Virus record (IMG/VR): IMGVR_UViG_3300020154_000003
Location: 124,001 to 188,000 of that record
DNA from: a virus
Direction: 5' to 3' (one strand)
Length of the DNA stretch: 64,000 bases
The notes beneath the pieces were generated by a model that was not told the DNA's origin, searched no databases, and saw nothing but the letters and a program-made list of their open reading frames with translations. Each line of letters begins with the position of its first letter. The stretch's first letter is position 1. A program made the translations under genes and the position numbers. Positions 34,585 through 52,265 of this stretch are shown piece by piece.

Positions 34585-34613
34585 GTTAAACGGGAATTCT
34601 TAATTAAGGTTAC
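34585..34613 (-). promoter_or_regulatory. phage promoter, cassette class
   Basis: GTAACCTT (34606-34613), 13 nt carrying AATTAAG, then CGTTTAAC. Faces the gene at 34278-34562. Confidence 0.65.
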
Positions 34614-34921
34614 AGTATATCCGCTTTTTCTTTGTAGCATTTTTCAGCATACTGAATTGCCTCAAAGTCATCGTTGGCCACAACCAGCCCATGAGTTTCC
34701 CCGAAACTTGTTAGCCAAAAGTATAAGGTTGCCTTTACCTTTCCAACCAGACAAGGGTAAATTCCTGCTTCAGTTGGCACAGGTTCAGCGATACTGAAAA
34801 TATCGTATCCGTTTTCACTCTCCAATTTGCCGTGCAGGTAAGTGAAAGGAATGCGTTTGGAAGGGAAGTCGAAACGTTGCTTTCCTAAAACTGATTCGGG
34901 GTTGATCCTAAGTGTTTCCAT
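34610..34921 (-). CDS. hypothetical protein (103 aa)
   Basis: Alpha/beta protein with VPTEAGIYPCLVGKVKATLYFW. No family is recognised. The end of the gene overlaps the -35 box of the next cassette. Confidence 0.6.
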   Translation of the reverse strand: METLRINPESVLGKQRFDFPSKRIPFTYLHGKLESENGYDIFSIAEPVPTEAGIYPCLVGKVKATLYFWLTSFGETHGLVVANDDFEAIQYAEKCYKEKADIL

Positions 34922-34924
34922 ATC

Positions 34925-34956
34925 TCATTAAACGTCAAATAGTTAATTAAGGTTAC
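34925..34956 (-). promoter_or_regulatory. phage promoter, cassette class
   Basis: GTAACCTT (34949-34956), 14 nt with AATTAA, then CGTTTAAT. Faces the gene at 34610-34921. Confidence 0.6.
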
Positions 34957-34965
34957 ACAAAAGTA

Positions 34966-34995
34966 ATAAAAAAAAGGGACTTTTTTAAGTCCCGT
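34966..34995 (-). terminator. Rho-independent terminator
   Basis: GGGACTT/AAGTCCC stem and a T8 run on the minus strand, downstream of the gene at 35000. Confidence 0.8.
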
Positions 34996-34999
34996 ATTT

Positions 35000-35884
35000 T
35001 TATGCTGCTTCAACCGTTTCGGTTTCTTTGGTCAACTTTTTGTCGAACAGTTGCAGGATGTTCGCATAGATTTTATTGTCGGCTTCCATGCGTAACTTTT
35101 GCGAAAGGTCTGCTTCACAATTTTCCAAGATAAAGTTCATGGAATTGTAAAGTATCCAAAGGTTCAAGTCACATTCAAACACGTCCATTTCATACTCAAT
35201 CCGTTGAATCGTTTCGTCAATCGACTTGAGCGGGAAGTGAGTTCCTTTGACAAGGTTGCGAATTAATTTTTCAATTTTCGCAGACGTTGGCTTTTCAATG
35301 GTCACGGCTTTCATAAGGTTGATCTGATTTTCAACCGTCTCAAAATTCGTGATATAGTTATCAATGTGGGTTGAAACCTCTTCCATTGAATAAATCGCTG
35401 AGTTGCTATGTTTGAATTCATACACGAAAGAAAGACCTTTCAGGTACGTTGAGAACGTTACAGATACACGTCCCTTTTCGTCAACCATATAGCGAACCAG
35501 CCCACCGATTGCTTGTGCTTTGATTTTTCCATCGTAAGAATTCACGAAAGAAACGGCAGGCAGAATGATTTCAGATTTCGGGCTGACAGTCGGGATAGTC
35601 GGAGTAACGTTCACGAAAAATTGTGCATCTTTCGTTGACTTTACGCGAGTCTCAAAACCTTTGAATTTCTTTTCCAGTACTGGCATAAGAGGTTCGAGCA
35701 CGGCACTGTTTTCAACCAGCTTGTAAACGTCTGAACAAAAGTTCAGGGCTTTTTTACGTTTACCGATACGACCAACAATGGCGTAAGCGTTTTCGCTATT
35801 CACTTCCATTGTCGCATCTTTGAAGAGTTCCACAGTCGCCTCTTTTGTGACAGGGAAACAGATAGCTTTAATTTCGGGATGCAT
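35000..35884 (-). CDS. DUF932-like protein
   Basis: Near residue 55 it has VYKLVENSAVLEPLMPVLEK, then a strand-rich middle with VSFVNSYDGKIKAQAIGGLVRY, as in DUF932 (phage/plasmid-like) proteins, and a helical C-terminus. The length (294 aa) fits. These are abundant early phage proteins of unknown function. Confidence 0.55.
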   Translation of the reverse strand: MHPEIKAICFPVTKEATVELFKDATMEVNSENAYAIVGRIGKRKKALNFCSDVYKLVENSAVLEPLMPVLEKKFKGFETRVKSTKDAQFFVNVTPTIPTVSPKSEIILPAVSFVNSYDGKIKAQAIGGLVRYMVDEKGRVSVTFSTYLKGLSFVYEFKHSNSAIYSMEEVSTHIDNYITNFETVENQINLMKAVTIEKPTSAKIEKLIRNLVKGTHFPLKSIDETIQRIEYEMDVFECDLNLWILYNSMNFILENCEADLSQKLRMEADNKIYANILQLFDKKLTKETETVEAA

Positions 35885-35905
35885 ATTTTTGGTTGTTTGT
35901 TATAT

Positions 35906-35937
35906 CCTATTATACGTACTTAATTCAGAAAGGTTGC
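35906..35937 (-). promoter_or_regulatory. phage promoter, cassette class with CGTATAAT
   Basis: GCAACCTT (35930-35937), 13 nt, then CGTATAAT (35909-35916). It joins the two promoter families seen in the window. Faces the DUF932-like gene. Confidence 0.65.
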
Positions 35938-35943
35938 CTTAAT

Positions 35944-36168
35944 TTAGAATATTTTTCTTAATTCCCTGCTAGGTACTGGCACGTATCCGGTGAATTCATA
36001 AACCTCCACTATCCTGCCAGCCGTATTGTATTTGACAAATAGCGACCTGTTTTGAGTGTATTCCCTTTTAATGAGTTCAAACACTTTTACGACTGCTAAT
36101 TGAGCACGGACTAAAGTATAGTCGGGATTGCCTAAAATATCGTTGACAGTTTTCATATTAGAATACAT
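35944..36168 (-). CDS. hypothetical protein (74 aa)
   Basis: Helical start, beta end (YNTAGRIVEVYEFTGYVPVP). It overlaps the gene at 36158 by 11 bp. No family is recognised. Confidence 0.55.
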   Translation of the reverse strand: MYSNMKTVNDILGNPDYTLVRAQLAVVKVFELIKREYTQNRSLFVKYNTAGRIVEVYEFTGYVPVPSRELRKIF

Positions 36169-36451
36169 AACAGTTCAGTTCATACTTTACTTTCATGCCA
36201 TAGACTTGAACGGCAAGGGCTTTCTTTGACTCTTTGCCATCTTTCAGAAGGGCAATTATATAGCGATTAGTTATTCCCTCAGAAGGTCTTTTTGGCCCTA
36301 CTGTGACCTTATTAAACCAGTCCGTTTCGTCAATGGTGAAACCTTTGGAGGTTGCAACGCGAACGGCCTCTGCCATTGCTGAGGTAAAAGAGTCGTGATA
36401 TAGTTGAAAGTTCATGTGAGTATTAACGTAGTTAATTAAGAAAGGTTGCAC
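36158..36451 (-). CDS. hypothetical protein (97 aa)
   Basis: Alpha/beta protein (SFTSAMAEAVRVATSKGFTI). Its own cassette promoter lies directly upstream and covers the downstream gene too. Confidence 0.6.
   Translation of the reverse strand: MQPFLINYVNTHMNFQLYHDSFTSAMAEAVRVATSKGFTIDETDWFNKVTVGPKRPSEGITNRYIIALLKDGKESKKALAVQVYGMKVKYELNCYVF
36418..36449 (-). promoter_or_regulatory. phage promoter, cassette class
   Basis: GCAACCTT (36442-36449), 13 nt with TTAATTAA, then CGTTAATACTC. Faces the gene at 36158. The ORF start overlaps the element, so the real start may be the inner ATG at 36416. Confidence 0.6.
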
Positions 36452-36458
36452 TAAATTA

Positions 36459-36485
36459 AGAAAAAAGCCCGTTAATTTACGGGCT
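36459..36485 (-). terminator. Rho-independent terminator
   Basis: AGCCCGT/ACGGGCT stem with a T-run on the minus strand; it overlaps the stop of the gene at 36472. Confidence 0.75.
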
Positions 36486-36798
36486 GTTCATTTGCAATGC
36501 GAGTCAATTGCTTTGCGTATTTCATGATTTTCTTTTTGGCCATTGCCAGTTGCTTTGCAGTCATGAAACCCTTTTCAATATACCACTTTGCAAATTTAGT
36601 CATGATAAACGCATCCGTACCGTTGAAACCTACTCCATTGTTGTGAGCAGTCGAATCGGAATTCTTTTCGTCTTCCGTTTGACGTTCATAGATTTTCACT
36701 ACCGAACGCATAACAAATTTGTCATCGTTTTCGAGCAGCAATTTGATTTGTTCAACTTGCCAGACTCTTTTTTTGGTTGCTATGATCGTTGTTTCCAT
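36472..36798 (-). CDS. hypothetical protein (108 aa)
   Basis: Helical, basic protein with DAFIMTKFAKWYIEKGFMTA near the centre. No family is recognised. Confidence 0.6.
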   Translation of the reverse strand: METTIIATKKRVWQVEQIKLLLENDDKFVMRSVVKIYERQTEDEKNSDSTAHNNGVGFNGTDAFIMTKFAKWYIEKGFMTAKQLAMAKKKIMKYAKQLTRIANEQPVN

Positions 36799-36802
36799 AC
36801 TG

Positions 36803-36832
36803 AGTTAAACGGACTTAATTAAGAAAGGTTGC
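36803..36832 (-). promoter_or_regulatory. phage promoter, cassette class
   Basis: GCAACCTT (36825-36832), 13 nt with TTAATTAAG, then CGTTTAACTC. Faces the gene at 36472. Confidence 0.65.
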
Positions 36833-36852
36833 GTTAATTAAGAAATATTTTT

Positions 36853-36945
36853 CCAGTACTGGTAAAAAAAATAAAAAGTAGGTTGGAGTACACTCTCTCG
36901 AAAACATTGACGTTTTCCACCCATCTTAACATATTGCAGGTTCGA
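36853..36945 (-). ncRNA. candidate small RNA a1 (minus strand)
   Basis: A cassette promoter (36949-36980) is followed by no reading frame. The transcript would contain a GAAAAC/GTTTTC hairpin, the near-palindrome GAGTGTACTC, a T-rich tract and a CCAGTACTGG site. GAGTRTACTCCAAC and the ending are shared with the locus at 38246. Confidence 0.5.
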
Positions 36946-36948
36946 TAA

Positions 36949-36980
36949 GTATATTAACGGCAATACTTAATTAAGGTTGC
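36949..36980 (-). promoter_or_regulatory. phage promoter, cassette class
   Basis: GCAACCTT (36973-36980), 13 nt, CGTTAATATAC. No gene follows; it drives the candidate RNA a1. Confidence 0.65.
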
Positions 36981-37003
36981 GTAAAAGCTAAATTATTTTC
37001 GAA

Positions 37004-37252
37004 TTATTTTGGAGGTCTGACAGACCAGTTCAGTTCCCCGTTGTGGATGTAGTAACCAAACTGTTTAAATTTATCCGGGCTGTTCAGTGTAACCCTGATA
37101 ATAAAATCATGTTTCTCCTTTTCGCTCCATTGTTGTGGCATTGTTTGGCTTTCCCTATGTTCCGGGAAGTCGCACCAAAGATTTACAAGGGTATGCATAA
37201 AATGGTCAGTGCTTACCACAAAGTTTGCAAAAGTTAAAATGTGTGCTTTCAT
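37004..37252 (-). CDS. hypothetical protein (82 aa)
   Basis: His/Trp-rich small protein (TFANFVVSTDHFMHTLVNLW). No family is recognised. Confidence 0.6.
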   Translation of the reverse strand: MKAHILTFANFVVSTDHFMHTLVNLWCDFPEHRESQTMPQQWSEKEKHDFIIRVTLNSPDKFKQFGYYIHNGELNWSVRPPK

Positions 37253-37259
37253 ATACTGA

Positions 37260-37288
37260 GTTAAACGGGTAAACTTAATTAAGGTTAC
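37260..37288 (-). promoter_or_regulatory. phage promoter, cassette class
   Basis: GTAACCTT (37281-37288), 13 nt with AATTAAG, CGTTTAACTC. Faces the gene at 37004. Confidence 0.65.
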
Positions 37289-37294
37289 ATAAAA

Positions 37295-37322
37295 AGAAAA
37301 AAATCCCTGATTTATTCAGGGA
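37295..37322 (-). terminator. Rho-independent terminator
   Basis: TCCCTGA/TCAGGGA stem with a T-run on the minus strand; it overlaps the end of the gene at 37312. Confidence 0.75.
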
Positions 37323-38181
37323 CTGACATATAAACGTCTTCCATTATACTATGAGTGTAACCACGTCTAAGGGTATAATTTGGTACTTCATTCTTACCGA
37401 TTAGCACGGCTTTCCAAGTGATATTCCCCTCTGAATCTTTGTAAAGTTTCACGTCCATACCGTCAAAATAATTTGCAAGTTCTTGAGCGGGATTGTTAGT
37501 ACAAAACTCTTCAAAGAATGCGTAAAAGTCACAAAGGGTATTTCTGTTTTCCAAAGTATCGGGAATCATTTTTGCAGCCATACGGTAACCGTATCTATGG
37601 AGGTCAGCAATTTTGCGGAAACTCACAGACTTTTTATAATCTTCCCCGTATTGTCTTTCATCTTCATAGTTAGTATCGGGTGAAAATTGTTTCACCTTAT
37701 TCCAGTACTCAGATATTTGATCTTCCAAGTCATAGTCATTTGTCGGACGTTGTTTCGGTACGTTGCTTTCCAGCGTTGAACCAAACTGAGTATTCCCGCA
37801 TTCAATAGATTCTTGAATCATGTCTTGAGTCGTTAACCTCATTAGTTCAGCATTTGAATAGCGATAGTTACGACCTTGCAGCCTATTCCATACTCCGAGC
37901 GTATTGATATAATACCACATTGCGCCCATTGCAGCCATTTCGCCCCCTACATTCATTGCATAGTCCCCGCGAAAGTATTTGTTTGAATATTCATGACTAT
38001 GTTCAAACACGTCATGAAAAATTCCAGTACCACCCCAAAATGCATTGAATGACGAACCTGAATGGTTATTGTCATAGGTATCTTTGTGCGCTAAACCATA
38101 TTCACCAGTTGCATCGTCACAAAAGAACGTCAATTCGACTTTTTTAACTAACCGTTTCATATTCTTTGTTGTTGTGTTCAT
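37312..38181 (-). CDS. hypothetical protein (289 aa)
   Basis: The N-terminal half has many aromatic and acidic residues, e.g. FFCDDATGEYGLAHKD and WGGTGIFHDVFEHSHEY; the HDVFEHSHE cluster could bind metal. The C-terminal part is helical. No family is recognised. Confidence 0.6.
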   Translation of the reverse strand: MNTTTKNMKRLVKKVELTFFCDDATGEYGLAHKDTYDNNHSGSSFNAFWGGTGIFHDVFEHSHEYSNKYFRGDYAMNVGGEMAAMGAMWYYINTLGVWNRLQGRNYRYSNAELMRLTTQDMIQESIECGNTQFGSTLESNVPKQRPTNDYDLEDQISEYWNKVKQFSPDTNYEDERQYGEDYKKSVSFRKIADLHRYGYRMAAKMIPDTLENRNTLCDFYAFFEEFCTNNPAQELANYFDGMDVKLYKDSEGNITWKAVLIGKNEVPNYTLRRGYTHSIMEDVYMSVPE

Positions 38182-38183
38182 GA

Positions 38184-38215
38184 GTATATTAACGGACTTA
38201 ATTAAGAAAGGTTGC
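38184..38215 (-). promoter_or_regulatory. phage promoter, cassette class
   Basis: GCAACCTT (38208-38215), 13 nt with TTAATTAAG, CGTTAATATAC. Faces the gene at 37312. Confidence 0.65.
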
Positions 38216-38245
38216 CTTAATTAAGATTTTTTTTGAATTATTTCA

Positions 38246-38308
38246 CCAGTACTGGTAAAAAAAAGAGGGCGTGTTGGAGTATACTCGGTGCCGTTTTTAA
38301 GAAACGTT
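38246..38308 (-). ncRNA. candidate small RNA a2 (minus strand)
   Basis: Behind its own cassette promoter (38313-38345) there is no reading frame. The transcript has GAGTATACTC, the shared CCAAC, a T8 run and a CCAGTACTGG site, as in a1. Confidence 0.5.
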
Positions 38309-38312
38309 ACAA

Positions 38313-38345
38313 GTATATTAACGGGCAAACCTTAATTAAGGTTAC
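38313..38345 (-). promoter_or_regulatory. phage promoter, cassette class
   Basis: GTAACCTT (38338-38345), 14 nt with AATTAAGG, CGTTAATATAC. Drives candidate RNA a2. Confidence 0.65.
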
Positions 38346-38354
38346 ACAAAAGAT

Positions 38355-38384
38355 GAAAAAAAGAGGGACTTTTTTTGTCCCTCC
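38355..38384 (-). terminator. Rho-independent terminator
   Basis: GAGGGAC/GTCCCTC stem with a T-run on the minus strand, after the gene at 38393. Confidence 0.8.
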
Positions 38385-38392
38385 CTTTCGTG

Positions 38393-38524
38393 TTAACTGA
38401 TTGCACTTTCCGGGCATCCCTCTGCTTTCATTGCCATTTCCTTGGCAGCTTTCAGGGATTGAGCGGTGACCTTTAAAACCTTTGTCCCGTTGTCATGTTT
38501 CAATCTGAGTGCAAAGGTTGTCAT
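38393..38524 (-). CDS. hypothetical small protein (43 aa)
   Basis: ATG at 38524; beta strand then helix (FALRLKHDNGTKVLKV, AQSLKAAKEMAMKAEG). No promoter of its own is seen, so it is probably co-transcribed with the gene at 38545. Confidence 0.55.
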   Translation of the reverse strand: MTTFALRLKHDNGTKVLKVTAQSLKAAKEMAMKAEGCPESAIS

Positions 38525-38544
38525 TCTTAAGTGTCGAGGCAATT

Positions 38545-38790
38545 TCATGCGTTTTGTGGGTTACGTAAAAGATTCATTTCGATAACTTTTTCACGGCATT
38601 GTCTACAGCTAGGCAAACTTAATGCCTGCCCCATAAATGTGGGAACCAGATTCAAACTACCTTTACCACCGTTCCATAGTCCTTTCCCGCAAAGGGTAGA
38701 GCCGTGCTGGAATTGTGTCAATCCTTCCCGACTTGCGGGCATGTGAGTAAGATCGTTTAAGTTCGTTGTCATATGTATACTAACGGGCAT
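38545..38790 (-). CDS. hypothetical protein (81 aa)
   Basis: Small protein with single Cys residues (STLCGK, LPSCRQCREK), perhaps metal-binding. No family is recognised. Confidence 0.55.
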   Translation of the reverse strand: MPVSIHMTTNLNDLTHMPASREGLTQFQHGSTLCGKGLWNGGKGSLNLVPTFMGQALSLPSCRQCREKVIEMNLLRNPQNA

Positions 38791-38806
38791 CCTTAATTAA
38801 GGTTAC
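38775..38806 (-). promoter_or_regulatory. phage promoter, cassette class
   Basis: GTAACCTT (38799-38806), 13 nt with TTAATTAAGG, CGTTAGTATAC. Faces the genes at 38545 and 38393; the upstream-most start codon of 38545 lies within it, so the later ATG (38772) is more likely. Confidence 0.6.
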
Positions 38807-38817
38807 ACAAAAAGGAT

Positions 38818-38845
38818 AAAAAAAAGGGACTTTTTTTCAAGTCCC
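38818..38845 (-). terminator. Rho-independent terminator
   Basis: GGGACTT/AAGTCCC stem with a T8 run on the minus strand, after the gene at 38853. Confidence 0.8.
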
Positions 38846-38852
38846 CTAATTT

Positions 38853-39098
38853 TCAGGCTGTTAGCAGATGTGCCACTTTGAACTTTGTCACCGTGTCGTT
38901 GAAGTCGTCAGCGAGGTTGTTTTCCTCATAGGTACGTTTCAGTTCTGCCAGTACCTTGAGATTCGATGCACCTTTGGGCAGTCCCACCAGTCTCTTAAAT
39001 TGAGCCTTTACAGGGGCAGCATTTCTGGCGATAGGCATTCCGAATTTAATTTCGGTAATGATCGACATAAGGAGGACTTTTAGAGTGAATGAATTCAT
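38853..39098 (-). CDS. hypothetical protein (81 aa)
   Basis: Either the ATG at 39098 or an inner ATG (MSIITEIKFGM) may start it. Basic helical protein with KVLAELKRTYEENNLADDF. No family is recognised. Confidence 0.55.
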   Translation of the reverse strand: MNSFTLKVLLMSIITEIKFGMPIARNAAPVKAQFKRLVGLPKGASNLKVLAELKRTYEENNLADDFNDTVTKFKVAHLLTA

Positions 39099-39120
39099 AT
39101 TGTTTTTTGTTTTGTTATAT

Positions 39121-39152
39121 GAGTTATAACGGCATTCCTTAATTAAGGTTAC
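39121..39152 (-). promoter_or_regulatory. phage promoter, cassette class
   Basis: GTAACCTT (39145-39152), 13 nt with AATTAAGG, CGTTATAACTC. Faces the gene at 38853. Confidence 0.6.
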
Positions 39153-39162
39153 ACAAAACGAG

Positions 39163-39188
39163 AAAAAAAAGGGACTTTTTTCAGTCCC
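39163..39188 (-). terminator. Rho-independent terminator
   Basis: GGGACT/AGTCCC stem with a T-run on the minus strand, after the gene at 39189. Confidence 0.8.
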
Positions 39189-39551
39189 TTAAATTTTGAT
39201 CGCTTTGTTGGTTACATGTGGCTTATTCCATTTCCCTATGTGGATGTTATAGTAATAATTCGGGATATTACCATAGTCGCCATCGGTTGAAACCGTTCTG
39301 CTTTTTGCGCTGATTATTTCAGCGATTGACAAAAGGAATTCAAGATAAGGCTTTCCCGCATGATGTTCTTTTATGTACATCGGGATAGGATTGAGTTGCA
39401 TGTAATTTTCGGGAAACTCAAAAGGGCTTTCCATTACCGCGACCTCAATGGTCGAAAGGTGTTGGCGTGTTATGCTAAATTTCACATTCGGATATTTAGC
39501 TTTGATCTTTGCCCTCATTTCCTGAACGGTCTCGGTTGTGATATAACTCAT
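39189..39551 (-). CDS. hypothetical protein (120 aa)
   Basis: Alpha/beta protein (VQEMRAKIKAKYPNVKFSITR at the start, a beta-rich end). No family is recognised. Preceded in the same unit by a 25-residue membrane peptide. Confidence 0.6.
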   Translation of the reverse strand: MSYITTETVQEMRAKIKAKYPNVKFSITRQHLSTIEVAVMESPFEFPENYMQLNPIPMYIKEHHAGKPYLEFLLSIAEIISAKSRTVSTDGDYGNIPNYYYNIHIGKWNKPHVTNKAIKI

Positions 39552-39555
39552 AACT

Positions 39556-39633
39556 TTAACGGTTATAAAGTGAAAGTAAGTAAAAACTGGTTAACACCAA
39601 AAAAACGAAGATGTTTATTATTATGCGTTTCAT
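39556..39633 (-). CDS. 25-residue membrane peptide
   Basis: ATG at 39633 follows the promoter -10 closely. Sequence MKRIIINIFVFLVLTSFYLL is one basic-then-hydrophobic segment, as in small phage membrane peptides. Its size limits certainty. Confidence 0.4.
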   Translation of the reverse strand: MKRIIINIFVFLVLTSFYLLSLYNR

Positions 39634-39635
39634 GA

Positions 39636-39668
39636 GTATATTAACGGGCAAACGTTAATTAAGGTTAC
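39636..39668 (-). promoter_or_regulatory. phage promoter, cassette class
   Basis: GTAACCTT (39661-39668), 14 nt with TTAATTAAC-type core, CGTTAATATAC. Faces 39556 and 39189; a plus-strand copy starts 33 bp away in the other direction. Confidence 0.65.
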
Positions 39669-39700
39669 AAAAAAAAATATTTTATTTTTTCGTGAATAAT

Positions 39701-39732
39701 GTAACCTTTGTGAATAGTTCACGTTAATATAC
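39701..39732 (+). promoter_or_regulatory. phage promoter, cassette class, plus strand
   Basis: GTAACCTT, 13 nt with the palindrome GTGAATAGTTCAC, CGTTAATATAC. Drives candidate small RNA s1. Confidence 0.65.
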
Positions 39733-39734
39733 AT

Positions 39735-39813
39735 ACGAACGCTGACAAGCTAGTAGGAGAGCCGAAAAGAAGGAAAAGGAGAGAACGGTTTCTGCAGCCA
39801 TCCGTTCTTTTTT
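39735..39813 (+). ncRNA. candidate small RNA s1 (about 79 nt)
   Basis: Promoter upstream, no start codon with a usable frame, and a terminator (AGAACGG/CCGTTCT plus T-run) at 39781-39813. ACATACGAACGC, AGTAGGAGAGCCGAAAA and AACGGTT..TGCAG recur in s2 (47184) and s3 (48288), which points to a conserved RNA. Flanked by minus-strand genes. Confidence 0.6.
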
Positions 39814-39830
39814 AAAAAAAAGAGAAACAA

Positions 39831-39853
39831 AAAAAGGGGATTATTCTCCCCTT
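39831..39853 (-). terminator. terminator hairpin
   Basis: AAGGGGA/TCCCCTT stem with a T-run on the minus strand; it overlaps the end of the gene at 39841. Confidence 0.6.
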
Positions 39854-39966
39854 GCTTCTTTGTCAAGTTGTTCTTTCAGGTCTTGTTCGTGCTGTTTTTC
39901 AGCCTCGATGTCCAAAAGTTCCTCAACTTGCTGCTCGATAATAAAATCCGGGATTTCGTCTTCCAT
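39841..39966 (-). CDS. small acidic protein (41 aa)
   Basis: ATG at 39966; a single charged helix (IIEQQVEELLDIEAEKQHEQ). Co-transcribed with the gene at 39973. Confidence 0.5.
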   Translation of the reverse strand: MEDEIPDFIIEQQVEELLDIEAEKQHEQDLKEQLDKEARGE

Positions 39967-39972
39967 TGCTTT

Positions 39973-40251
39973 TTATTTAAGTTGTGGGTATCTCCATAGA
40001 GTATCTTTCACCGTGCGGTTGTTAACTATGACTTTCGTTTCATCCATGATGCAGGAAAGTTCACAGTTCCCGAAGTAGGATGTTTGAGCGTTTTTCTTTG
40101 CTTGTTTCAAAGAATTGCCCCAACCTTCCCGGACTGAATAACCTGATTGTTTCAGGCCATTTTTTTCGCAAAGTACCCTTTCCATTGCATCAGCTAAAAA
40201 GAATTCGACCAATAGAAAGTAGCAGGCGTTTCGTGTTGTTGTGTGTCTCAT
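39973..40251 (-). CDS. hypothetical protein (92 aa)
   Basis: FLADAMERVLCEKNGLKQSG and NSLKQAKKNAQTSYFGN indicate a helical protein; no family is recognised. Confidence 0.6.
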   Translation of the reverse strand: MRHTTTRNACYFLLVEFFLADAMERVLCEKNGLKQSGYSVREGWGNSLKQAKKNAQTSYFGNCELSCIMDETKVIVNNRTVKDTLWRYPQLK

Positions 40252-40253
40252 GA

Positions 40254-40285
40254 GTATATTAACGGGGATTGTTAATTAAGGTTGC
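40254..40285 (-). promoter_or_regulatory. phage promoter, cassette class
   Basis: GCAACCTT (40278-40285), 13 nt with TTAATTAAC core, CGTTAATATAC. Faces 39973 and 39841. Confidence 0.65.
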
Positions 40286-40307
40286 GTGAAAAGAAAAAAT
40301 ATTTTTT

Positions 40308-40340
40308 GTAACCTTTGTTGCATTGTTCCCGTTAACAATG
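40308..40340 (+). promoter_or_regulatory. phage promoter, cassette class, plus strand
   Basis: GTAACCTT (40308-40315), 14 nt, CGTTAACAATG. Faces the gene at 40358; divergent from the copy at 40254. Confidence 0.55.
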
Positions 40341-40357
40341 CCAAACAACGAAAAACT

Positions 40358-40573
40358 ATGAAATTTTATGGCTATGTTCCCACAAAAGAGGGGAAAGAAC
40401 CTTTAGGGACTGAAGGGCGCACAATGTTTGAACTTGAAACAGTTCCGGGCGCAATTCGAAAGATGAGACGGTATGCCAGTACTGTGAATTCTCCTAAACT
40501 TTCCGCTCCATCATTTAAGCTATTCAGCTATTCTAATTTTTACGATCAATCAACTTTTACTGAAATTATTTAA
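40358..40573 (+). CDS. hypothetical protein (71 aa)
   Basis: I chose the ATG at 40358, 18 nt after the promoter. Small basic product (KFYGYVPTKEGKEPLGTEGR). A lone plus-strand gene in a minus-strand block. Confidence 0.6.
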   Translation: MKFYGYVPTKEGKEPLGTEGRTMFELETVPGAIRKMRRYASTVNSPKLSAPSFKLFSYSNFYDQSTFTEII

Positions 40574-40576
40574 AAG

Positions 40577-41017: not shown

Positions 41018-41039
41018 ATCGTGTTTGTTTTGTTGTTAA

Positions 41040-41071: not shown

Positions 41072-41089
41072 ATAAAATGTTATATTATT

Positions 41090-46224: not shown

Positions 46225-46418
46225 TATTCTTTATCTTTGATTGATACCTCAGTTCTTTTATTCCATGTTCTGGAATATCTGAAACCTTTTGCAGATTCCA
46301 CAACCAGATCAACTTTCCCGGAAGGAGTGCTGATACCTGCTGAGGGAGCGACAACCACTTTCACATTTGTGGGAGTAAGGATGTCACCTACACTTAAATC
46401 TTTTACCAGTTTTTTCAC
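46224..46418 (-). CDS. hypothetical protein (64 aa)
   Basis: Beta-rich small protein (LSVGDILTPTNVKVVVAPSA). No family is recognised. Confidence 0.55.
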   Translation of the reverse strand: MKKLVKDLSVGDILTPTNVKVVVAPSAGISTPSGKVDLVVESAKGFRYSRTWNKRTEVSIKDKE

Positions 46419-46421
46419 GGC

Positions 46422-46604
46422 TCAATTGTTTTCTGATTTCTGAAAATAAACAAACTCTTTTATTTCATCCTCGAAGTCACGTTTCACGTCATGAAAGTTA
46501 GGATATTTGCAAGCATAGTATGCTTGAACTTCCTTTTGCTTTTCCTCGGATGAGGCACGATACCATTCCTTTGCATCACTCCAAGATATTGTTTCTGTTT
46601 CCAT
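46422..46604 (-). CDS. hypothetical protein (60 aa)
   Basis: ATG at 46604. Acidic, with an EWYRASSEEKQKEVQAYYA helix. Heads a four-gene overlapping run; a promoter was not clearly seen in front of it. Confidence 0.55.
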   Translation of the reverse strand: METETISWSDAKEWYRASSEEKQKEVQAYYACKYPNFHDVKRDFEDEIKEFVYFQKSENN

Positions 46605-46667
46605 ACCCATATAAACGAAAAAAAGTACTGTAGGGTTACAGTACTTTTCACATTTTTCAAACTTTTT

Positions 46668-47063
46668 TTAATCTTCGACTGTTACGTCATCCAGTTTCAG
46701 GAAGTCATAGGCATCGGAACCACGTTGGTGTGCTGCTTTTTCTGACCTTTCCTCTAAGCCTTGTATTTGAGCAATTATCCTTGGATACCCGAAACGAGGT
46801 ACGGTAATGTGACCGAACGCTCTACCTTCATCCACAAAGGCATCCGCATAGATGATTCCCTTTTCAGAACCGATCATATAATACTTGATATTCGGGCTGC
46901 TGAAATGGAGTTTCAGTTTTACCGTTTTGCCATTGACAATGCCTGACACTGAAAGATCATCATGGTCAATCAGTACCCGTATATCAATGCCAGTTGCAAT
47001 TGTTGCCAGTACTGACAGAATGAGGGCGATGTCATGCTTTTGATGTGATTGAACAATTTCCAT
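46668..47063 (-). CDS. hypothetical protein (131 aa)
   Basis: I chose the ATG at 47063 because the region upstream is a cassette promoter. SHQKHDIALILSVLATIATG is followed by a beta-rich body. No family is recognised. Confidence 0.6.
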   Translation of the reverse strand: MEIVQSHQKHDIALILSVLATIATGIDIRVLIDHDDLSVSGIVNGKTVKLKLHFSSPNIKYYMIGSEKGIIYADAFVDEGRAFGHITVPRFGYPRIIAQIQGLEERSEKAAHQRGSDAYDFLKLDDVTVED

Positions 47064-47086
47064 AGTTTTTTGTTGTTTGGTGATAT

Positions 47087-47118
47087 GAGTATAAACGGCA
47101 CTATTCACAAAAGGTTGC
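47087..47118 (-). promoter_or_regulatory. phage promoter, cassette class
   Basis: GCAACCTT (47111-47118), 13 nt, CGTTTATACTC. Faces 46668. Confidence 0.6.
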
Positions 47119-47149
47119 CAGAAATTTAAAATATATTTTCTTGAATATT

Positions 47150-47181
47150 GTAACCTTTTCAAACGGCATCCGTTAATATAC
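47150..47181 (+). promoter_or_regulatory. phage promoter, cassette class, plus strand
   Basis: GTAACCTT (47150-47157), 13 nt, CGTTAATATAC. Drives candidate small RNA s2. Confidence 0.65.
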
Positions 47182-47183
47182 AT

Positions 47184-47270
47184 ACGAACGCTAACAAAGC
47201 AAGTAGGAGAGGGGAAACCAACCAAATTAGAGGACGGTTATTGCAGGGGTCTGTCTGTTTACTATTGATG
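47184..47270 (+). ncRNA. candidate small RNA s2
   Basis: After the promoter, ACATACGAACGC, AAGTAGGAGAG and ACGGTTATTGCAGGGGTCTG match s1 and especially s3. No reading frame. The 3' end is uncertain; GGACGG and CTGTCT can pair weakly. Confidence 0.55.
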
Positions 47271-47284
47271 GCAAATATAGGAGG

Positions 47285-47845
47285 TTACAATTCGAACTCC
47301 AAAGTTTCTCCGTTCATTCTGATTTCAACCAACTTGTCAACGCAAAACTGTCTGAACGTATTGGTTTTCAAATTTTTGCGAATGATGTTTTTCGCGATTG
47401 TCAAAGGTGCGCTATTCACTTCCCGGTATCTTACAGGAACCAGCACTTCTTTTGAGATACGATTTCCGTAAACGTAAACTCTGCCAGTTTCATTGTGAAC
47501 GCGAACATTCGGGAAAACTTGGGTATACGTACCCTGCTGCGCCCGCGACTGATTTGATTCATTCTCAATGGCATACAAAAGGGCTATCCGGGCTTGCTCC
47601 GCATATTGAGCCACAGAACCAAATTCGAGACCAGCAATATTGCTAGGGTCGCTAAGGAATTTTCTGTCAGCTTCTTTTGCGTTTGCATAGGAGGCACCAA
47701 CGTTTACCACGTAGTTTGAAATTTCACCCTGATTGTTGCAGTAGTTTTTTACCGATACAAAGGTAGGGGTTTTTTGACCTGCCAAATTCGCATACAATTT
47801 GAGTTGAGCGATAACTTCGGAAGGTGATAAGAGGACAAGTATCAT
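47285..47845 (-). CDS. hypothetical protein (186 aa)
   Basis: Helical first half (EVIAQLKLYANLAGQ...), then VFPNVRVHNETGRVYVYGN and a helical end. No family is recognised. Confidence 0.6.
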   Translation of the reverse strand: MILVLLSPSEVIAQLKLYANLAGQKTPTFVSVKNYCNNQGEISNYVVNVGASYANAKEADRKFLSDPSNIAGLEFGSVAQYAEQARIALLYAIENESNQSRAQQGTYTQVFPNVRVHNETGRVYVYGNRISKEVLVPVRYREVNSAPLTIAKNIIRKNLKTNTFRQFCVDKLVEIRMNGETLEFEL

Positions 47846-47870
47846 GGTTCGTTTTGTGTTTGGTTATATG

Positions 47871-47900
47871 TATTATACGGCTGCTTCAATAAAAGGTTGC
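47871..47900 (-). promoter_or_regulatory. phage promoter, cassette class with CGTATAAT
   Basis: GCAACCTT (47893-47900), 13 nt with GAAGCAGC, CGTATAAT. Faces 47285. Confidence 0.65.
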
Positions 47901-47923
47901 GATAATATAGGGTTATTTTTCAA

Positions 47924-48157
47924 TTAATCCATATATCCATGCTCAATTGAAAAGTCACTTTCCTTTGCACCCTCATTCTCAATTAAGTGTGCCTTAACGC
48001 GATCAAAGTAGGCGTAGTTAGTCATATTACCCTGAACAATTCCCTCAGTAATTGTCCTTCCATTTTGTCTTAAGCGCATACCGATGCAGCAAGTTCCTTG
48101 GTCACCCATTTCAGATATGACCTCCTTTGCGATTTGTTTCAGTGTTATTGCGTCCAT
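47924..48157 (-). CDS. hypothetical protein (77 aa)
   Basis: AKEVISEMGDQGTCCIGMRL includes a CC pair. No family is recognised. Confidence 0.6.
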   Translation of the reverse strand: MDAITLKQIAKEVISEMGDQGTCCIGMRLRQNGRTITEGIVQGNMTNYAYFDRVKAHLIENEGAKESDFSIEHGYMD

Positions 48158-48180
48158 GTTTTTTTGTGTTTGTTAATATA

Positions 48181-48211
48181 GAGTTAAACGGCCATGCCCG
48201 CAAAAGGTTGC
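48181..48211 (-). promoter_or_regulatory. phage promoter, cassette class
   Basis: GCAACCTT (48204-48211), 13 nt with GGGCATGGC, CGTTTAACTC. Faces 47924. Confidence 0.6.
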
Positions 48212-48254
48212 GTAATTAAGGATAAAAAAAGTTAAATTATTTTCACAAATAATG

Positions 48255-48286
48255 TAACCTTTGTGAATAGTTCCCGTTAATATACA
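48255..48286 (+). promoter_or_regulatory. phage promoter, cassette class, plus strand
   Basis: GTAACCTT (48255-48262), 13 nt with GTGAATAGTTCC, CGTTAATATAC. Nearly identical to the s1 promoter. Drives s3. Confidence 0.65.
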
Positions 48287-48287
48287 T

Positions 48288-48355
48288 ACGAATCAAGTAG
48301 GAGAGCCGAAAAAAAGGAAATTAGAAAACGGTTATTGCAGGGGTCTGTCTTGTTT
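48288..48355 (+). ncRNA. candidate small RNA s3
   Basis: CATACGAA, CAAGTAGGAGAGCCGAAAA and ACGGTTATTGCAGGGGTCTG align with s1 and s2. No reading frame. It ends before CCAGTACTGG (48364). Confidence 0.58.
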
Positions 48356-48404
48356 AACTTATGCCAGTACTGGAAAAAATATTTAAACTATTTTCGTGAA
48401 AAAC

Positions 48405-48437
48405 GTAACCTTTGTACAAAAGTCAACGTATAAAGAG
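48405..48437 (+). promoter_or_regulatory. phage promoter, cassette class, plus strand
   Basis: GTAACCTT (48405-48412), 14 nt, CGTATAAAG. Faces the GP88 gene. Confidence 0.6.
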
Positions 48438-48474
48438 CATACGCAAACAACAAACAAAACAAACTTTACTAGCT

Positions 48475-49278
48475 ATGCGACACGACTTTAATTTTTCCTA
48501 CATTGGCGGTGTTAACCTGACTGCGAAAATTGCACACGGTAAAGAGTACGGTATTGATACTTATACTCTATATTTTGCTCCTTATAAATTGAGCGGGCAA
48601 AACGTGTGCGCAAAGGCAACAAAGGAATGTATAATGGGTTGCCTTAACACGTCCGGGCGGGTTAAAATGGACAAAAAGAACATTATTGTCAATGCCCGCA
48701 CACAAAGGACTATTGCCTTTTACGAACAAAGGGAAAAATTTATGACTTTAATGATTCATGAAATTTCCCTTGCAAAAAAGCGTTCGGAAAAAAAGGGGAC
48801 TATCTTTGCAGTCCGTTTAAACGGTACTTCCGACCTGTCCCCGGAAATTTTCAAAGCGTTCGGGCAAAATATTCTCGAATTGTTCCCGGATGTTCAGTTT
48901 TACGATTACACAAAGGTACTGAACCGCAAAAAGTTGGTTGAAAAATACCCAAATTACGACCTGACTTTTTCTTATACGGGCTACAATTGGTCTGAATGCC
49001 AGCAAGCGTTATCGGACAATGTTCGGGTCGCTGTAGTGTTTGACGTGAAAAGAGGTAAAGCCCTGCCTAAAACTTTCAACGGGTACAAAGTTATTGACGG
49101 TGATTTGAATGATTACCGTCCAATGGATGAAAAGAATGTGATTGTAGGCTTACGGTGGAAAGATATTGCAAACCGTGAAAATAATACCGCGATCAAAAAT
49201 AGTCCCTTCGTGGTAAAGGTAACGACTGAAAATGTCGTTACCACTTCGGACAATGTACATGAAACACAAACAGTTTAA
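48475..49278 (+). CDS. GP88-family phage protein
   Basis: I chose the ATG at 48475, after the promoter. FNFSYIGGVNLTAKIAHGK, the Cys-rich NVCAKATKECIMGCLNTSGR, RTIAFYEQREKF, VRLNGTSDLSPE and FYDYTKVLNR follow the GP88 family, known from mycobacteriophages and many others. Function unknown; the Cys cluster suggests a metal centre. Confidence 0.75.
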   Translation: MRHDFNFSYIGGVNLTAKIAHGKEYGIDTYTLYFAPYKLSGQNVCAKATKECIMGCLNTSGRVKMDKKNIIVNARTQRTIAFYEQREKFMTLMIHEISLAKKRSEKKGTIFAVRLNGTSDLSPEIFKAFGQNILELFPDVQFYDYTKVLNRKKLVEKYPNYDLTFSYTGYNWSECQQALSDNVRVAVVFDVKRGKALPKTFNGYKVIDGDLNDYRPMDEKNVIVGLRWKDIANRENNTAIKNSPFVVKVTTENVVTTSDNVHETQTV

Positions 49279-49289
49279 ATAGTACTGGC

Positions 49290-49535
49290 ATGAAAACTAC
49301 AAACCTACTCAGAAAATACAATAGGCTTGAGGACAATAACGATCACAATGAAGCTGCTGCCTTGCTGGTTAATAACTTTGGTACGGATGACGAAAAGCAA
49401 ACCATGAAGGAAATTATTGCCCGTGCTGAAAAACAAAACGGCATGACCAGTGAGGATATAAAATTGAGGTATGAAATATCTCAAAAGTACTATCCGATAA
49501 TCACAGGCAAAGCCTATCCAATACAAAAGAAGTAA
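49290..49535 (+). CDS. hypothetical protein (81 aa)
   Basis: A TAGTACTGG near-palindrome lies one base before the ATG. Helical protein, no family. Confidence 0.6.
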   Translation: MKTTNLLRKYNRLEDNNDHNEAAALLVNNFGTDDEKQTMKEIIARAEKQNGMTSEDIKLRYEISQKYYPIITGKAYPIQKK

Positions 49536-49568
49536 CCCGGACAATGTTCACCCTTAATTAATAAAGCT

Positions 49569-49874
49569 ATGGACACTCAAAAAATTGATAACCTTATCCA
49601 TCAATTGGATAGTATTGCACGAAGTTACGATGGCTATGAGTATGGCCTGCCTACTCATCATGACCATACGATGATTGAAATGGAGAATGCTATTAAACAT
49701 GCTTTCCCGGACAATGTACAGACCAGTACTGACAAGTCAGAAAAGATGCGGGCGGTATTGGAAAAATTGGTAGCTTCGTTCCCGGAAATGGATACCGATG
49801 AACCAATAGCTGGCAGCGATGCCGTTGACATCCTTTGCGGGATGTGGGATGAAATTAAAGACGCTATAAAATAA
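49569..49874 (+). CDS. hypothetical protein (101 aa)
   Basis: Helical, acidic protein (DTQKIDNLIHQLDSIARSYD). ACAATGTAC (49711) lies within the coding region. No family. Confidence 0.6.
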   Translation: MDTQKIDNLIHQLDSIARSYDGYEYGLPTHHDHTMIEMENAIKHAFPDNVQTSTDKSEKMRAVLEKLVASFPEMDTDEPIAGSDAVDILCGMWDEIKDAIK

Positions 49875-49880
49875 CCTCCT

Positions 49881-50033
49881 ATGAAAAATCCGATTATCAT
49901 AATTAAGGTTGGTAAAACTGTAATTGGAGATACTAGGGATTCACGTACAACTAATGATGCTAAGAGAAAATTTCTCAAGCAATACTCAGGGTACAATCCT
50001 AAATCAGTTACTGCGACTATTAAATATAACTAA
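49881..50033 (+). CDS. hypothetical small protein (50 aa)
   Basis: ATG at 49881, TAA at 50031. Basic product (NPIIIIKVGKTVIGDTRDSR). The next gene starts after one base. Confidence 0.55.
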   Translation: MKNPIIIIKVGKTVIGDTRDSRTTNDAKRKFLKQYSGYNPKSVTATIKYN

Positions 50034-50034
50034 T

Positions 50035-50307
50035 ATGGCAAAGAAAAATAAAATTGTCATCACTGACAATAAGGAAATGATAGCAGAGTTCATGAACTTA
50101 ATTAACAAACCCATCTACGAAAAGAAGTCCCCGATGTTCTTTAAGGATGAGGGAGGTTATTACGTAACCAAACTGACTGCCAGTAATGAGCCTGCTGACC
50201 CTAACAAAATGTATGAATTCGGTACGCTCACAGAGGTGCCAGTACCAAATAAAAGGACTGCCATCCAATACGCAAAACAATTCGGTCGCACTGCAATATT
50301 TGGTTAG
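50035..50307 (+). CDS. hypothetical protein (90 aa)
   Basis: I chose the ATG at 50035. Product AKKNKIVITDNKEMIAEFMN; small alpha/beta. No family. Confidence 0.6.
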   Translation: MAKKNKIVITDNKEMIAEFMNLINKPIYEKKSPMFFKDEGGYYVTKLTASNEPADPNKMYEFGTLTEVPVPNKRTAIQYAKQFGRTAIFG

Positions 50308-50313
50308 AATAAT

Positions 50314-50345
50314 GTAACCTTTACGTACAATGTACGTTAGATAAC
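50314..50345 (+). promoter_or_regulatory. phage promoter, cassette class, ACAATGTAC spacer
   Basis: GTAACCTT (50314-50321), 13 nt centred on ACAATGTAC (50327-50335), CGTTAGATAAC. It ends 2 nt before the ATG at 50348, so the mRNA may be leaderless. Confidence 0.65.
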
Positions 50346-50347
50346 AT

Positions 50348-50590
50348 ATGAACAAACGCATCTTAGAATTCGCAAAGCTTCCCTTGGAGGAAAGAATCAA
50401 AGTGATCATGCTCTTCGGAGTATCCCTGATGACTATCCCTCATTGTGGCCTGATTGGTTCACTCTTTACCCTTGGCACTGAGTACGTTGAAATGATGGCT
50501 GATACCCGTACTGGTGAGATAGTTCACCTTGGCATCGCGGATTACAGCGACCTGAATAAGTACGCTGCTCACATCGACCTCGATATTTAA
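50348..50590 (+). CDS. hypothetical protein (80 aa)
   Basis: A central hydrophobic segment (KVIMLFGVSLMTIPHCGLIG) may be buried or membrane-associated. No family. Confidence 0.6.
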   Translation: MNKRILEFAKLPLEERIKVIMLFGVSLMTIPHCGLIGSLFTLGTEYVEMMADTRTGEIVHLGIADYSDLNKYAAHIDLDI

Positions 50591-50601
50591 TAAACTGTAC
50601 A

Positions 50602-51267
50602 ATGTACGTCAAGTATAACGATTTCAAAGATCATTGTGGATTACTGCCTGACTGGTACTCTGAAGAGATACATGATCAAATAAACAAATACCTGCCTGAA
50701 AGTAAGCTGCAGGCCGTTAAGTATCTGAAGGACACCTCCAAAGAATTCGAGACTGAAACCACGCATGGCTTAGGGCTGAAGGAATGTAAAGACATCGTTG
50801 ACTCGATGGCCACAGTACTGGCAAAGCTTGAGTCTATTCGAGAGGCATATGATCATGAACTTTCTTCATTTATTGAGCATTCATTAATTAAGAATACCAA
50901 TACCGCCCTGTCTCTAAAAGAATTCAAACAAAAAGCAAAAATCATTCTCCCAAACTGGTATACTGAATCTTTCCATCAAAAGGTCGTTAACCTGATGGTC
51001 AATGAACAGAAACTCAATGCCTGCAAATTGATCTGCGATACCTCATCCAGCTATGGAACCCGCCACATCTATGATCTGAAGTGGGCAAAGATTGAAATCG
51101 TTGACGTACTCAACGATATGATGAGCAAAATCAATAAAGATGAACTGTCTGGCAAAATTATATCCTTAATTGAGGATGGAGCCTTCCGCACCAGTATTTT
51201 AAAAGAAGTACTGGAATTCGTCCCAAAAGCGGAAATGCTTAAAATAGTTGAAAAATATTCACCATAA
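50602..51267 (+). CDS. duplicated-domain protein resembling bL12 C-terminal domain
   Basis: Two repeats of about 95 residues: LPDWYSEEIHDQI then KLQAVKYLKD and HGLGLKECKDIVDSM; and LPNWYTESFHQKV then KLNACKLICD and YDLKWAKIEIVDVL. The K-x-x-A-(V/C)-K plus G-L-K-E-x-K-D-(I)-V pattern is that of the L7/L12 C-terminal domain, which contacts translation factors; phage versions exist. The start ATG lies within an ACAATGTAC motif. Confidence 0.6.
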   Translation: MYVKYNDFKDHCGLLPDWYSEEIHDQINKYLPESKLQAVKYLKDTSKEFETETTHGLGLKECKDIVDSMATVLAKLESIREAYDHELSSFIEHSLIKNTNTALSLKEFKQKAKIILPNWYTESFHQKVVNLMVNEQKLNACKLICDTSSSYGTRHIYDLKWAKIEIVDVLNDMMSKINKDELSGKIISLIEDGAFRTSILKEVLEFVPKAEMLKIVEKYSP

Positions 51268-51291
51268 TTCGAAACAATTTTCTTAACTTTC

Positions 51292-51323
51292 GCAACCTTT
51301 ACGTACAATGTACGTTAGTATAC
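51292..51323 (+). promoter_or_regulatory. phage promoter, cassette class, ACAATGTAC spacer
   Basis: GCAACCTT (51292-51299), 13 nt with ACAATGTAC (51305-51313), CGTTAGTATAC. Faces the sigma-factor gene, which may thus control itself. Confidence 0.65.
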
Positions 51324-51355
51324 ATAAAAGAAAATAACTTTAACTAACCACTCTT

Positions 51356-51919
51356 ATGAAATCCAGCAAAGTTGTCATCCTTGAGATCAATGCAATTTAC
51401 AAAGCTTTCAAGCCTGCGATCACGAAGTACGTGAATCTCAAGATCAGGGATAAGATGATTGCTGAAGAACTCATCAATGACGTGTTCGTTAAAGTTCACA
51501 CATCTCTCCGCACCTACGATTCGAAGAAAGCACAATTTAATACTTGGATATTCAACATCGCCAAGAATGTGCTGATCGACCACTTCAGAAAGAAGTCGCT
51601 CGAAACCACCTCTCTGGAAGTTTCCAAACAGGATGACTCTGAAGACACAATGTCTGAGACTCTGCCCGTGGCTACCCCGGATCGGAACCCCCTTGAATCC
51701 ATGATCAGCGATGAAACAATGTACAATGTACAAACCGCTATGGGCCACCTCAATGAGACTCAACGTGAAATGCTCACAATGTACGCTCTGGATAACCTGA
51801 CCTACGAAGAGATCGCAGCCATGCTCAACATGCCTATGGGTACTGTCAAAGGCACGATCTTTAACGCTCGTACCAGACTGAAAGAAATCCTTGGCAACCG
51901 TATACCAGTACTGGCATGA
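51356..51919 (+). CDS. ECF-like sigma-70-family factor
   Basis: 187 residues, the ECF size. Region 2 is seen as IAEELINDVFVKVHTSLRTY and FNTWIFNIAKNVLIDHFRKK; region 4 as LNETQREMLTMYALDNLTYEEIAAMLNM then GTVKGTIFNARTRLKEIL (helix-turn-helix). A linker of about 35 residues is acidic. Candidate reader of the 33 cassette promoters, as T4-like phages use gp55; this needs testing. Coupled by ATGA to a zinc-ribbon gene. Confidence 0.85.
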   Translation: MKSSKVVILEINAIYKAFKPAITKYVNLKIRDKMIAEELINDVFVKVHTSLRTYDSKKAQFNTWIFNIAKNVLIDHFRKKSLETTSLEVSKQDDSEDTMSETLPVATPDRNPLESMISDETMYNVQTAMGHLNETQREMLTMYALDNLTYEEIAAMLNMPMGTVKGTIFNARTRLKEILGNRIPVLA

Positions 51920-52092
51920 ATAATATAGCACAACCTGAAGACATGTTGAAGTGTAGCGATTGTAAGACAATCTACGATCCTCTGCTCAACAAAAGATGTC
52001 CCTGCTGTGGGAATAACCAGCGATTTCTTAATAGCGTTATTGAAGGGCTGGATGATGAGTCCAACTTCATTGGCGAGGATGATGACCATTAA
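51916..52092 (+). CDS. zinc-ribbon protein coupled to sigma factor (58 aa)
   Basis: CSDCKTIYDPLLNKRCPCCG gives two Cys pairs; the tail is acidic. The ATG overlaps the sigma stop, so the two are translated together. It might bind the sigma factor, but nothing in the sequence proves that. CCAGTACTGG lies one base before its ATG. Confidence 0.65.
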   Translation: MNNIAQPEDMLKCSDCKTIYDPLLNKRCPCCGNNQRFLNSVIEGLDDESNFIGEDDDH

Positions 52093-52103
52093 TTAAGGAA
52101 ACC

Positions 52104-52250
52104 ATGTTACAAGCATTCTTAGCACAAACCGCACAAGATTACGATCTGCCAGTACATATCGTGCAACAGATTTGGGAGAAGTATGAAGGTACTGGATTGT
52201 TTTACGATAAATTGGAAGAATATCTCAAAAGTCGTAACCTTTGTAACTAG
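52104..52250 (+). CDS. hypothetical small protein (48 aa), TAG stop
   Basis: ATG at 52104; the gene ends in TAG inside the spacer of the next promoter. Readthrough would give about 44 unrelated codons across the next gene, so here TAG is probably a real stop. Confidence 0.5.
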   Translation: MLQAFLAQTAQDYDLPVHIVQQIWEKYEGTGLFYDKLEEYLKSRNLCN

Positions 52251-52265
52251 TTCTCGTTAACATAC
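52234..52265 (+). promoter_or_regulatory. phage promoter, cassette class
   Basis: GTAACCTT (52234-52241), 13 nt (TGTAACTAGTTCT), CGTTAACATAC. It ends five bases before the ATG at 52270. Confidence 0.65.

Follow-up and report, generated by a model that had tools for sequence, protein, structure and literature searches.

A block of repeated ECF-type promoters around a candidate self-activating sigma factor gene in two jumbo phages

Introduction

Which factor reads a promoter that recurs before small genes throughout 17.7 kb of a phage genome, and is that factor encoded within the same block? The question is raised by a window of 64,000 nt comprising bases 124001-188000 of the 366,038-bp virus record IMGVR_UViG_3300020154_000003, here called G000. 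An original prediction, made from the letters of the window, had described one promoter design repeated at fixed spacing together with an extracytoplasmic function (ECF)-like sigma factor gene, and had proposed a dedicated phage regulon with self-control. The repeated design is referred to below as the class I promoter and the sigma factor as sigma1; positions are window coordinates unless stated otherwise.

Results and Discussion

The class I promoter block

The strict form of the class I promoter was defined as GYAACCTT-N13/14-CGT, with GYAACCTT as the -35 box and CGT in the -10 box. The window contained 33 strict sites, 25 on the minus and 8 on the plus strand, all within 34,590-52,257, a count identical to that predicted for 34.5-52.3 kb. 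With a 34th site, the near-copy GTAACCCT on the minus strand at 46,639, they mark out a 17.7-kb block of small genes (34582..52265, both strands). The spacer was 13 nt in 27 of the 33 strict sites (AAC-16-CGT) and 14 nt in the other six (AAC-17-CGT), as had been described, and the -10 variants reported earlier, CGTTAATATAC, CGTATAAT and CGTTTAAC, were all found. For 29 of the 34 sites, an ATG that begins a frame of 30 codons or more lay within ~50 nt.

The block held 35 GYAACCTT words, 33 of them with CGT at exactly 13 or 14 nt, while any other offset occurred at most once. In 200 dinucleotide-shuffled versions of the block the pattern was found 0.02 times on average and twice at maximum, compared with the 33 sites observed. 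The repetition is not due to chance. A motif scan of the whole genome, which had been suggested with the original prediction, located 39 sites in the 366-kb record, namely the 33 in the block, five at 203.1-211.8 kb and one at 240.9 kb of the record, leaving six copies in the remaining 348 kb; the reversed pattern, used as control over the entire record, gave a single site.

ECF holoenzymes depend on stringent matches at -35 and -10 and on near-fixed spacers (PMC6411747), and a CGT -10 box has been used as an ECF mark in a flavobacterium (PMC9723704). The class I promoter has this geometry, with AAC in the -35 box, CGT in the -10 box and a fixed distance of 16-17 nt. A contrast to a host promoter of TAnnTTTG type, also put forward earlier, could not be confirmed, TAnnTTTG showing no enrichment in the phage (434 occurrences vs 492 for the control).

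The sigma1 gene

The predicted sigma gene within the block (51356..51919, plus strand) encodes a 187-aa protein (P0001) that matched Pfam Sigma70_r2 (7.6e-13, residues 15-81) and Sigma70_r4_2 (2.8e-14, residues 125-175), as well as the phage sigma PHROG 1740 (8e-30). It passed the ECF superfamily model TIGR02937 of NCBIfam with 94.6 bits against a cut-off of 42.9 and has the layout of ECF (group IV) factors, with regions 2 and 4 only and a size in the class of ~180-200 aa. Among the 25 best matches listed the superfamily model alone passed, and no named NCBIfam ECF subfamily (SigW, RpoE, SigM, Sig70_bacteroi1 and others) was above cut-off; Sig70_bacteroi1 scored 86.6 against 126.4. The closest solved structural relatives were RpoE, SigW and SigH. 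The matches indicate that sigma1 is a genuine ECF sigma factor, in agreement with the earlier description.

The gene also lies behind a copy of the same promoter, as had been noted. This class I site (51292..51323, plus strand) begins 64 bp before the sigma1 ATG, with its CGT 43 nt before the ATG, and is presumably a target of sigma1 itself, an arrangement consistent with the proposed autoregulation.

A 58-aa zinc-ribbon-like open reading frame (ORF) overlapping the sigma1 stop codon (51916..52092, plus strand) was considered as a conserved anti-sigma factor but set aside, as in the second phage described below it is not conserved and does not adjoin sigma1; its matches were below every Pfam cut-off. 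Bacterial relatives in genome contigs were ECF factors with 22-38% identity, mostly from Streptomyces, and indicated neither a donor nor a host.

A second phage with the same arrangement

A scan of viral contigs with the class I pattern identified a second jumbo phage, IMGVR_UViG_3300032157_000001 (371.5 kb, here G001), with 21 copies, 20 of them within 13.6 kb (254.5-268.1 kb). Pattern matches in other contigs (L019-L021 and L025-L027) were isolated and were set aside as chance. The G001 cluster contains a sigma1 homologue (38% identity, E 1e-34), likewise preceded by a class I copy, at 259174(-), 62 bp before its ATG, and the two sigma1 proteins were sisters in the tree (83/86). No relative of sigma1 was found in a single-sequence search of viral contigs; a two-sequence profile retrieved G001 and, besides it, a single distant gene on a 217.7-kb contig that has no class I cluster (L029). 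Profile searches based on two conserved proteins of the block turned up no relative beyond G001.

The spacer in G001 was 14 nt at every class I site listed (AAC-17-CGT), compared with mainly 13 in G000, a coherent shift. The -10 form in G001 was CGTnnnnATAC, with ATAC at +7 to +10 invariant in 20 of 20 sites. For 14 proteins encoded in the block region a homologue is encoded in the cluster region of G001; in seven of these pairs, including sigma1 and a GP88-family protein, a class I promoter immediately precedes the gene in either phage, with gene order reshuffled between the two. The GP88-family gene (48475..49278, plus strand; Pfam PF17338, 1.3e-31) is 71% identical in G001. Since boxes, spacing, self-promoter and targets are conserved across distant phages, the arrangement provides strong evidence for function.

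A second promoter class, a third word and sigma2

A second ECF-type class, AACA-N15-CGTATA (class II), was present at 31 sites in 214 kb outside the block, as opposed to 0-1 sites at other distances. It shares the AAC-16-CGT distance of class I, has no member in the block and is spread over the rest of the genome, for example at window positions 978, 8093 and 17312 (plus strand). Looser class II sites (n = 40) stood ahead of genes such as those for polynucleotide kinase and rIIA. The class II peak in G001 was weaker and lay at 17 (10 sites), the same one-base shift as seen there for class I; the joint shift could mean that one sigma factor reads both classes or that the host core enzyme sets the distance.

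Both phages also carry, without a -35 partner, a third word before genes, GTATTTAT (23 vs 3.8 expected and 8 vs 0.6), found at 84-104 kb and 282-322 kb of G000 and, on the plus strand, at window positions 8868, 17055, 18045 and 23485. It resembles the late promoters of T4 and is a candidate late promoter; no virion gene could be recognised among its targets.

A second ECF paralog, sigma2, whose ECF match spans both region 2 and region 4, was found in both phages. It is ~124 kb from the class I block, and immediately ahead of it neither phage shows a promoter of class I or class II. In both it adjoins a gene that, from its sequence, we presume to be primase-like.

Proposed regulation of the block and alternatives

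No match to the RNA polymerase beta/beta' domains (PF00623, PF00562; Rpb1, Rpb2) was found in G000 or G001, either of which may be an incomplete record, although the same search detected them in 14 of 14 control genomes. The host core enzyme is therefore presumably used, and jumbo phages with sigma factors have been argued to recruit it (PMC7824862). We consider it likely that the block is a regulon of sigma1, self-activating and dependent on the host core polymerase. The pairing of sigma1 with the class I promoter is suggested by location, self-promoter and co-conservation. Sigma1 would bind the host core RNA polymerase, and the holoenzyme would recognize the GYAACCTT (-35) and CGTTAATATAC-like (-10) boxes before ~30 units of small genes, before five or more short non-coding transcripts and ahead of sigma1 itself, where its action would create a positive feedback loop. 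The first sigma1 molecules could be carried in the virion or arise from read-through or from an unrecognised early promoter. The dedicated regulon with self-control is supported by the ECF protein, the geometry and confinement of the motif and the recurrence of the whole arrangement in G001. Since the phage also has another ECF paralog and a further promoter class of ECF type, the programme is not one of a single sigma factor.

Several points weigh against this assignment. Class I was the one promoter recognised directly before sigma1, and none of host type was evident there. The class I cluster is known from two phages, G001 being the one relative that has it, and no comparable AAC-16-CGT peak was present near the ECF genes of the crAss-like phage cr1_1, the Bacteroides phage SJC03 or a 636-kb phage. 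The conserved sigma2 could share or take over the role, and every statement on transcription of the block is drawn from sequence.

Assigning the class I promoters to sigma2, with sigma1 reading another class or being minor, is improbable in our judgement. Sigma2 is better conserved (tree branches of 0.12 and 0.38 vs 0.93 and 0.81 for sigma1), its match covers both ECF regions, and with two classes of equal geometry there are two sigma factors to be assigned; against this, it is sigma1 that both phages keep within the cluster and downstream of a class I copy of its own, sigma2 is remote from the block and shows no such copy, and the T4-late-like GTATTTAT would offer it a different role. That a host ECF factor reads class I, the phage parasitising a host stress regulon, is very improbable. 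Bacteroidota do have many ECF factors and at least one promoter class of CGT type (PMC9723704, PMC7366714), but the class I promoters are confined to a block carrying the phage's own ECF gene, which is kept there in both phages, and their spacer shifts coherently between the two. We give equally little credence to the repeats being mobile promoter cassettes that spread by copying and whose main use is to provide homology for the shuffling of genes, a role described in T4-type phages. Small genes fill the block, gene order is shuffled between G000 and G001, the spacer words TTAATTAAG and GATAGCAGC are common to some class I sites, and 'mobile regulatory cassettes' are cited for T4-type phages. 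The constraint, however, falls on the two boxes and the distance between them alone, with spacers and flanks mostly dissimilar, unlike the outcome of recent cassette copying. Cassettes would in any case need a factor to read them, and copying and a sigma1 regulon are compatible.

The sigma1 regulon may also be one part of a layered programme on the host core enzyme, in which autocatalytic sigma1 would serve the block genes and short RNAs, class II (AACA/CGTATA) the rest of the non-late genome and sigma2 the late-type GTATTTAT, with a third of sigma1 transcripts leaderless. In this programme virion-carried sigma1 would prime the loop, as the gene seems to possess no promoter besides its own. 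As a whole this extended scheme is doubtful.

Predicted transcription starts and leaders

The distance from the C of CGT to the ATG was bimodal in G000, mostly +13 to +15 or +27 to +48, and in G001 was +12 to +13 or +26 to +40; no offset between 16 and 25 occurred in either phage. On the minus strand the ATG is at +13 behind the promoters at 36418..36449, 36801..36832 (gene 36472-36798, conserved in G001), 38184..38215, 38775..38806 and 40254..40285 and, with a spacer of 14, behind those at 34924..34956 and 39636..39668 (a 25-aa ORF); it is at +14 for 45039..45070 and at +15 for 37257..37288. Plus-strand promoters with short offsets are at 50314..50345 (+13) and 52234..52265 (+15), and the minus-strand near-copy GTAACCCT (46607..46639, spacer 14) has ATGs at +7 and +13. 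The longer offsets on the minus strand are +30 (34582..34613), +32 (35906..35937, before a DUF932-like gene at 35000-35884, and 44039..44070), +33 (39121..39152, 41040..41071, 43354..43385 and 48180..48211), +34 (41922..41953, 43688..43719, 47087..47118 and 47869..47900), +35 (42604..42636, spacer 14, and 44681..44712) and +37 (45692..45723). On the plus strand, both with a spacer of 14, they are +28 (40308..40340) and +48 (48405..48437, the GP88 gene).

The usual ECF numbering makes a transcription start ~12-13 nt beyond the C of CGT the more likely one. GTT is the -10 element of sigma-H promoters (PMC6411747), and the sigma-H numbering is carried over to the class I motif by analogy. A start 5-9 nt after CGTTAATATAC, as first proposed, would leave the start codons of the predicted leaderless mRNAs untranscribed, and on the present numbering must be shifted 3-8 nt upstream. 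The product of the gene at 47285-47845 (promoter 47869..47900), 58% identical in G001, aligned with its homologue there from M1 to M1 over 186 columns, with the ATG at +34 in G000 and +12 in G001. At this gene in G001 transcription must therefore begin no later than +12, from which leaderless mRNAs are predicted.

From the offsets we infer that about a third of class I mRNAs start at the AUG or at most 2 nt from it, i.e. are leaderless, while most others would have an A/C-rich leader of 13-24 nt. In Bacteroides ~3.7% of 5' untranslated regions are shorter than 10 nt (PMC7366714), and in a flavobacterium 5.5% of mRNAs are leaderless (PMC9723704); if true, the third predicted for sigma1 transcripts would be far above the 4-6% reported for Bacteroidota. 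Shine-Dalgarno-like words were scarce ahead of the longer ORFs (9% and 7%), which fits a Bacteroidota host.

Predicted short transcripts

Five class I promoters lead to predicted short non-coding transcripts. Three on the plus strand (39701..39732, 47150..47181 and 48254..48285) have no gene start nearby and are followed by a common core, AGTAGGAGAG(CC)GA, which defines family A and is also found behind three class I promoters of G001. The first of the predicted RNAs (39735..39813, plus strand; core GTAGGAGAGCCGA) ends in a terminator-like 12-bp hairpin with a T run; the other two (47184..47255 and 48288..48359, plus strand) may be short RNAs or leaders, their 3' ends being uncertain. The remaining two promoters, on the minus strand (36949..36980 and 38313..38345), are family B candidates, followed within ~120 nt by the hairpin GAGTRTACTC and a T run. 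A conserved RNA structure for family A was dropped as a candidate, having only two consensus pairs, and no credible Rfam match to the family was found. GGAG/AAGGA words, similar to an anti-Shine-Dalgarno target, give no more than a speculative hint of function.

Comparison with known systems

Phage sigma regulons are already known, and that of G000 would be a variant of ECF type that is unusually large, concentrated in a single block and accompanied by a sister class. In Salmonella phage 7-11 (gp47; PMC8948821) and phiEco32 (gp36) a phage sigma factor likewise redirects the host core polymerase to dedicated phage promoters. Those of 7-11 consist of two parts held 16 nt apart (GTAAtg-16-aCTA) and were shown in vitro; they differ in their boxes, number only eight and lie upstream of late genes with no compact block, in contrast to G000, where ~33 promoters, that of the sigma gene among them, share a single small-gene block. 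Bacterial ECF regulons (SigW, RpoE, SigH) are like sigma1 in family, AAC-type -35 box, CGT/GTT-type -10 box, 16-17 nt distance and self-promoter. Unlike them, sigma1 has no recognised conserved anti-sigma partner adjoining it, class I conservation extends beyond the -10 box, and many start codons fall at the predicted +1.

The ECF genes of crAss-like phages ('RNA polymerase sigma-W factor'), mostly from gut samples, encode proteins with 25-29% identity to sigma1; no comparable promoter cluster was seen near the one gene examined, and no regulon is reported in the literature compared. The T4-type group 2 jumbo phages (PMC7824862) are likewise large, lack an RNA polymerase of their own and encode sigma factors, which in that survey are either minimal sigmas with a single helix-turn-helix or RpoD-like; an ECF regulon whose promoters are identified is not described there. 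Although ECF sigma genes have been annotated in crAss-like and giant phages, none is tied to a promoter set in the literature compared. The two phages provide a concrete candidate sigma-promoter pair in two independent natural versions (38% identical sigmas, spacer 13 vs 14), and class II promoters differ from class I by a few bases, making sigma1 and the class I promoters useful for studying the evolution of ECF specificity and spacing; in Bacteroidota they might also serve for orthogonal expression. The leaderless mRNAs and the short RNAs are predictions not made before.

Other features of the window

Further words accompany the promoters. The word TTAATTAA(G) is present in the spacer of about a dozen class I promoters at 34.6-40.3 kb, in some making the perfect palindrome AACCTTAATTAAGGTT together with the -35 box, a possible operator. 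The palindrome CCAGTACTGG occurred 21 times in the window vs 0.02 expected, 26 times in the G000 genome and 44 times in G001; one copy lies inside the spacer of the promoter at 45039..45070. Together with the word ACAATGTAC it is concentrated in and beside the promoter block in both phages (window 31.5-60.6 kb; G001 252.5-274.2 kb), frequently just ahead of start codons or within promoter spacers. Because both run beyond the last class I promoter, they would form a separate layer.

A tRNA with a CTA anticodon at 1586-1659 was called Pyl by ARAGORN and scored 67 bits in Rfam, a possible amber suppressor. Recoding of TAG was considered and rejected; read-through hardly altered coding density, and TAG is still a stop. 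A tRNA-Arg called by ARAGORN beside the block (33954-34038, minus strand) was unsupported by Rfam at the gathering score. Genes of NAD and tRNA metabolism at 9326-16997 encode nicotinamide phosphoribosyltransferase, ribose-phosphate pyrophosphokinase, tRNA-His guanylyltransferase and a QueC-like protein.

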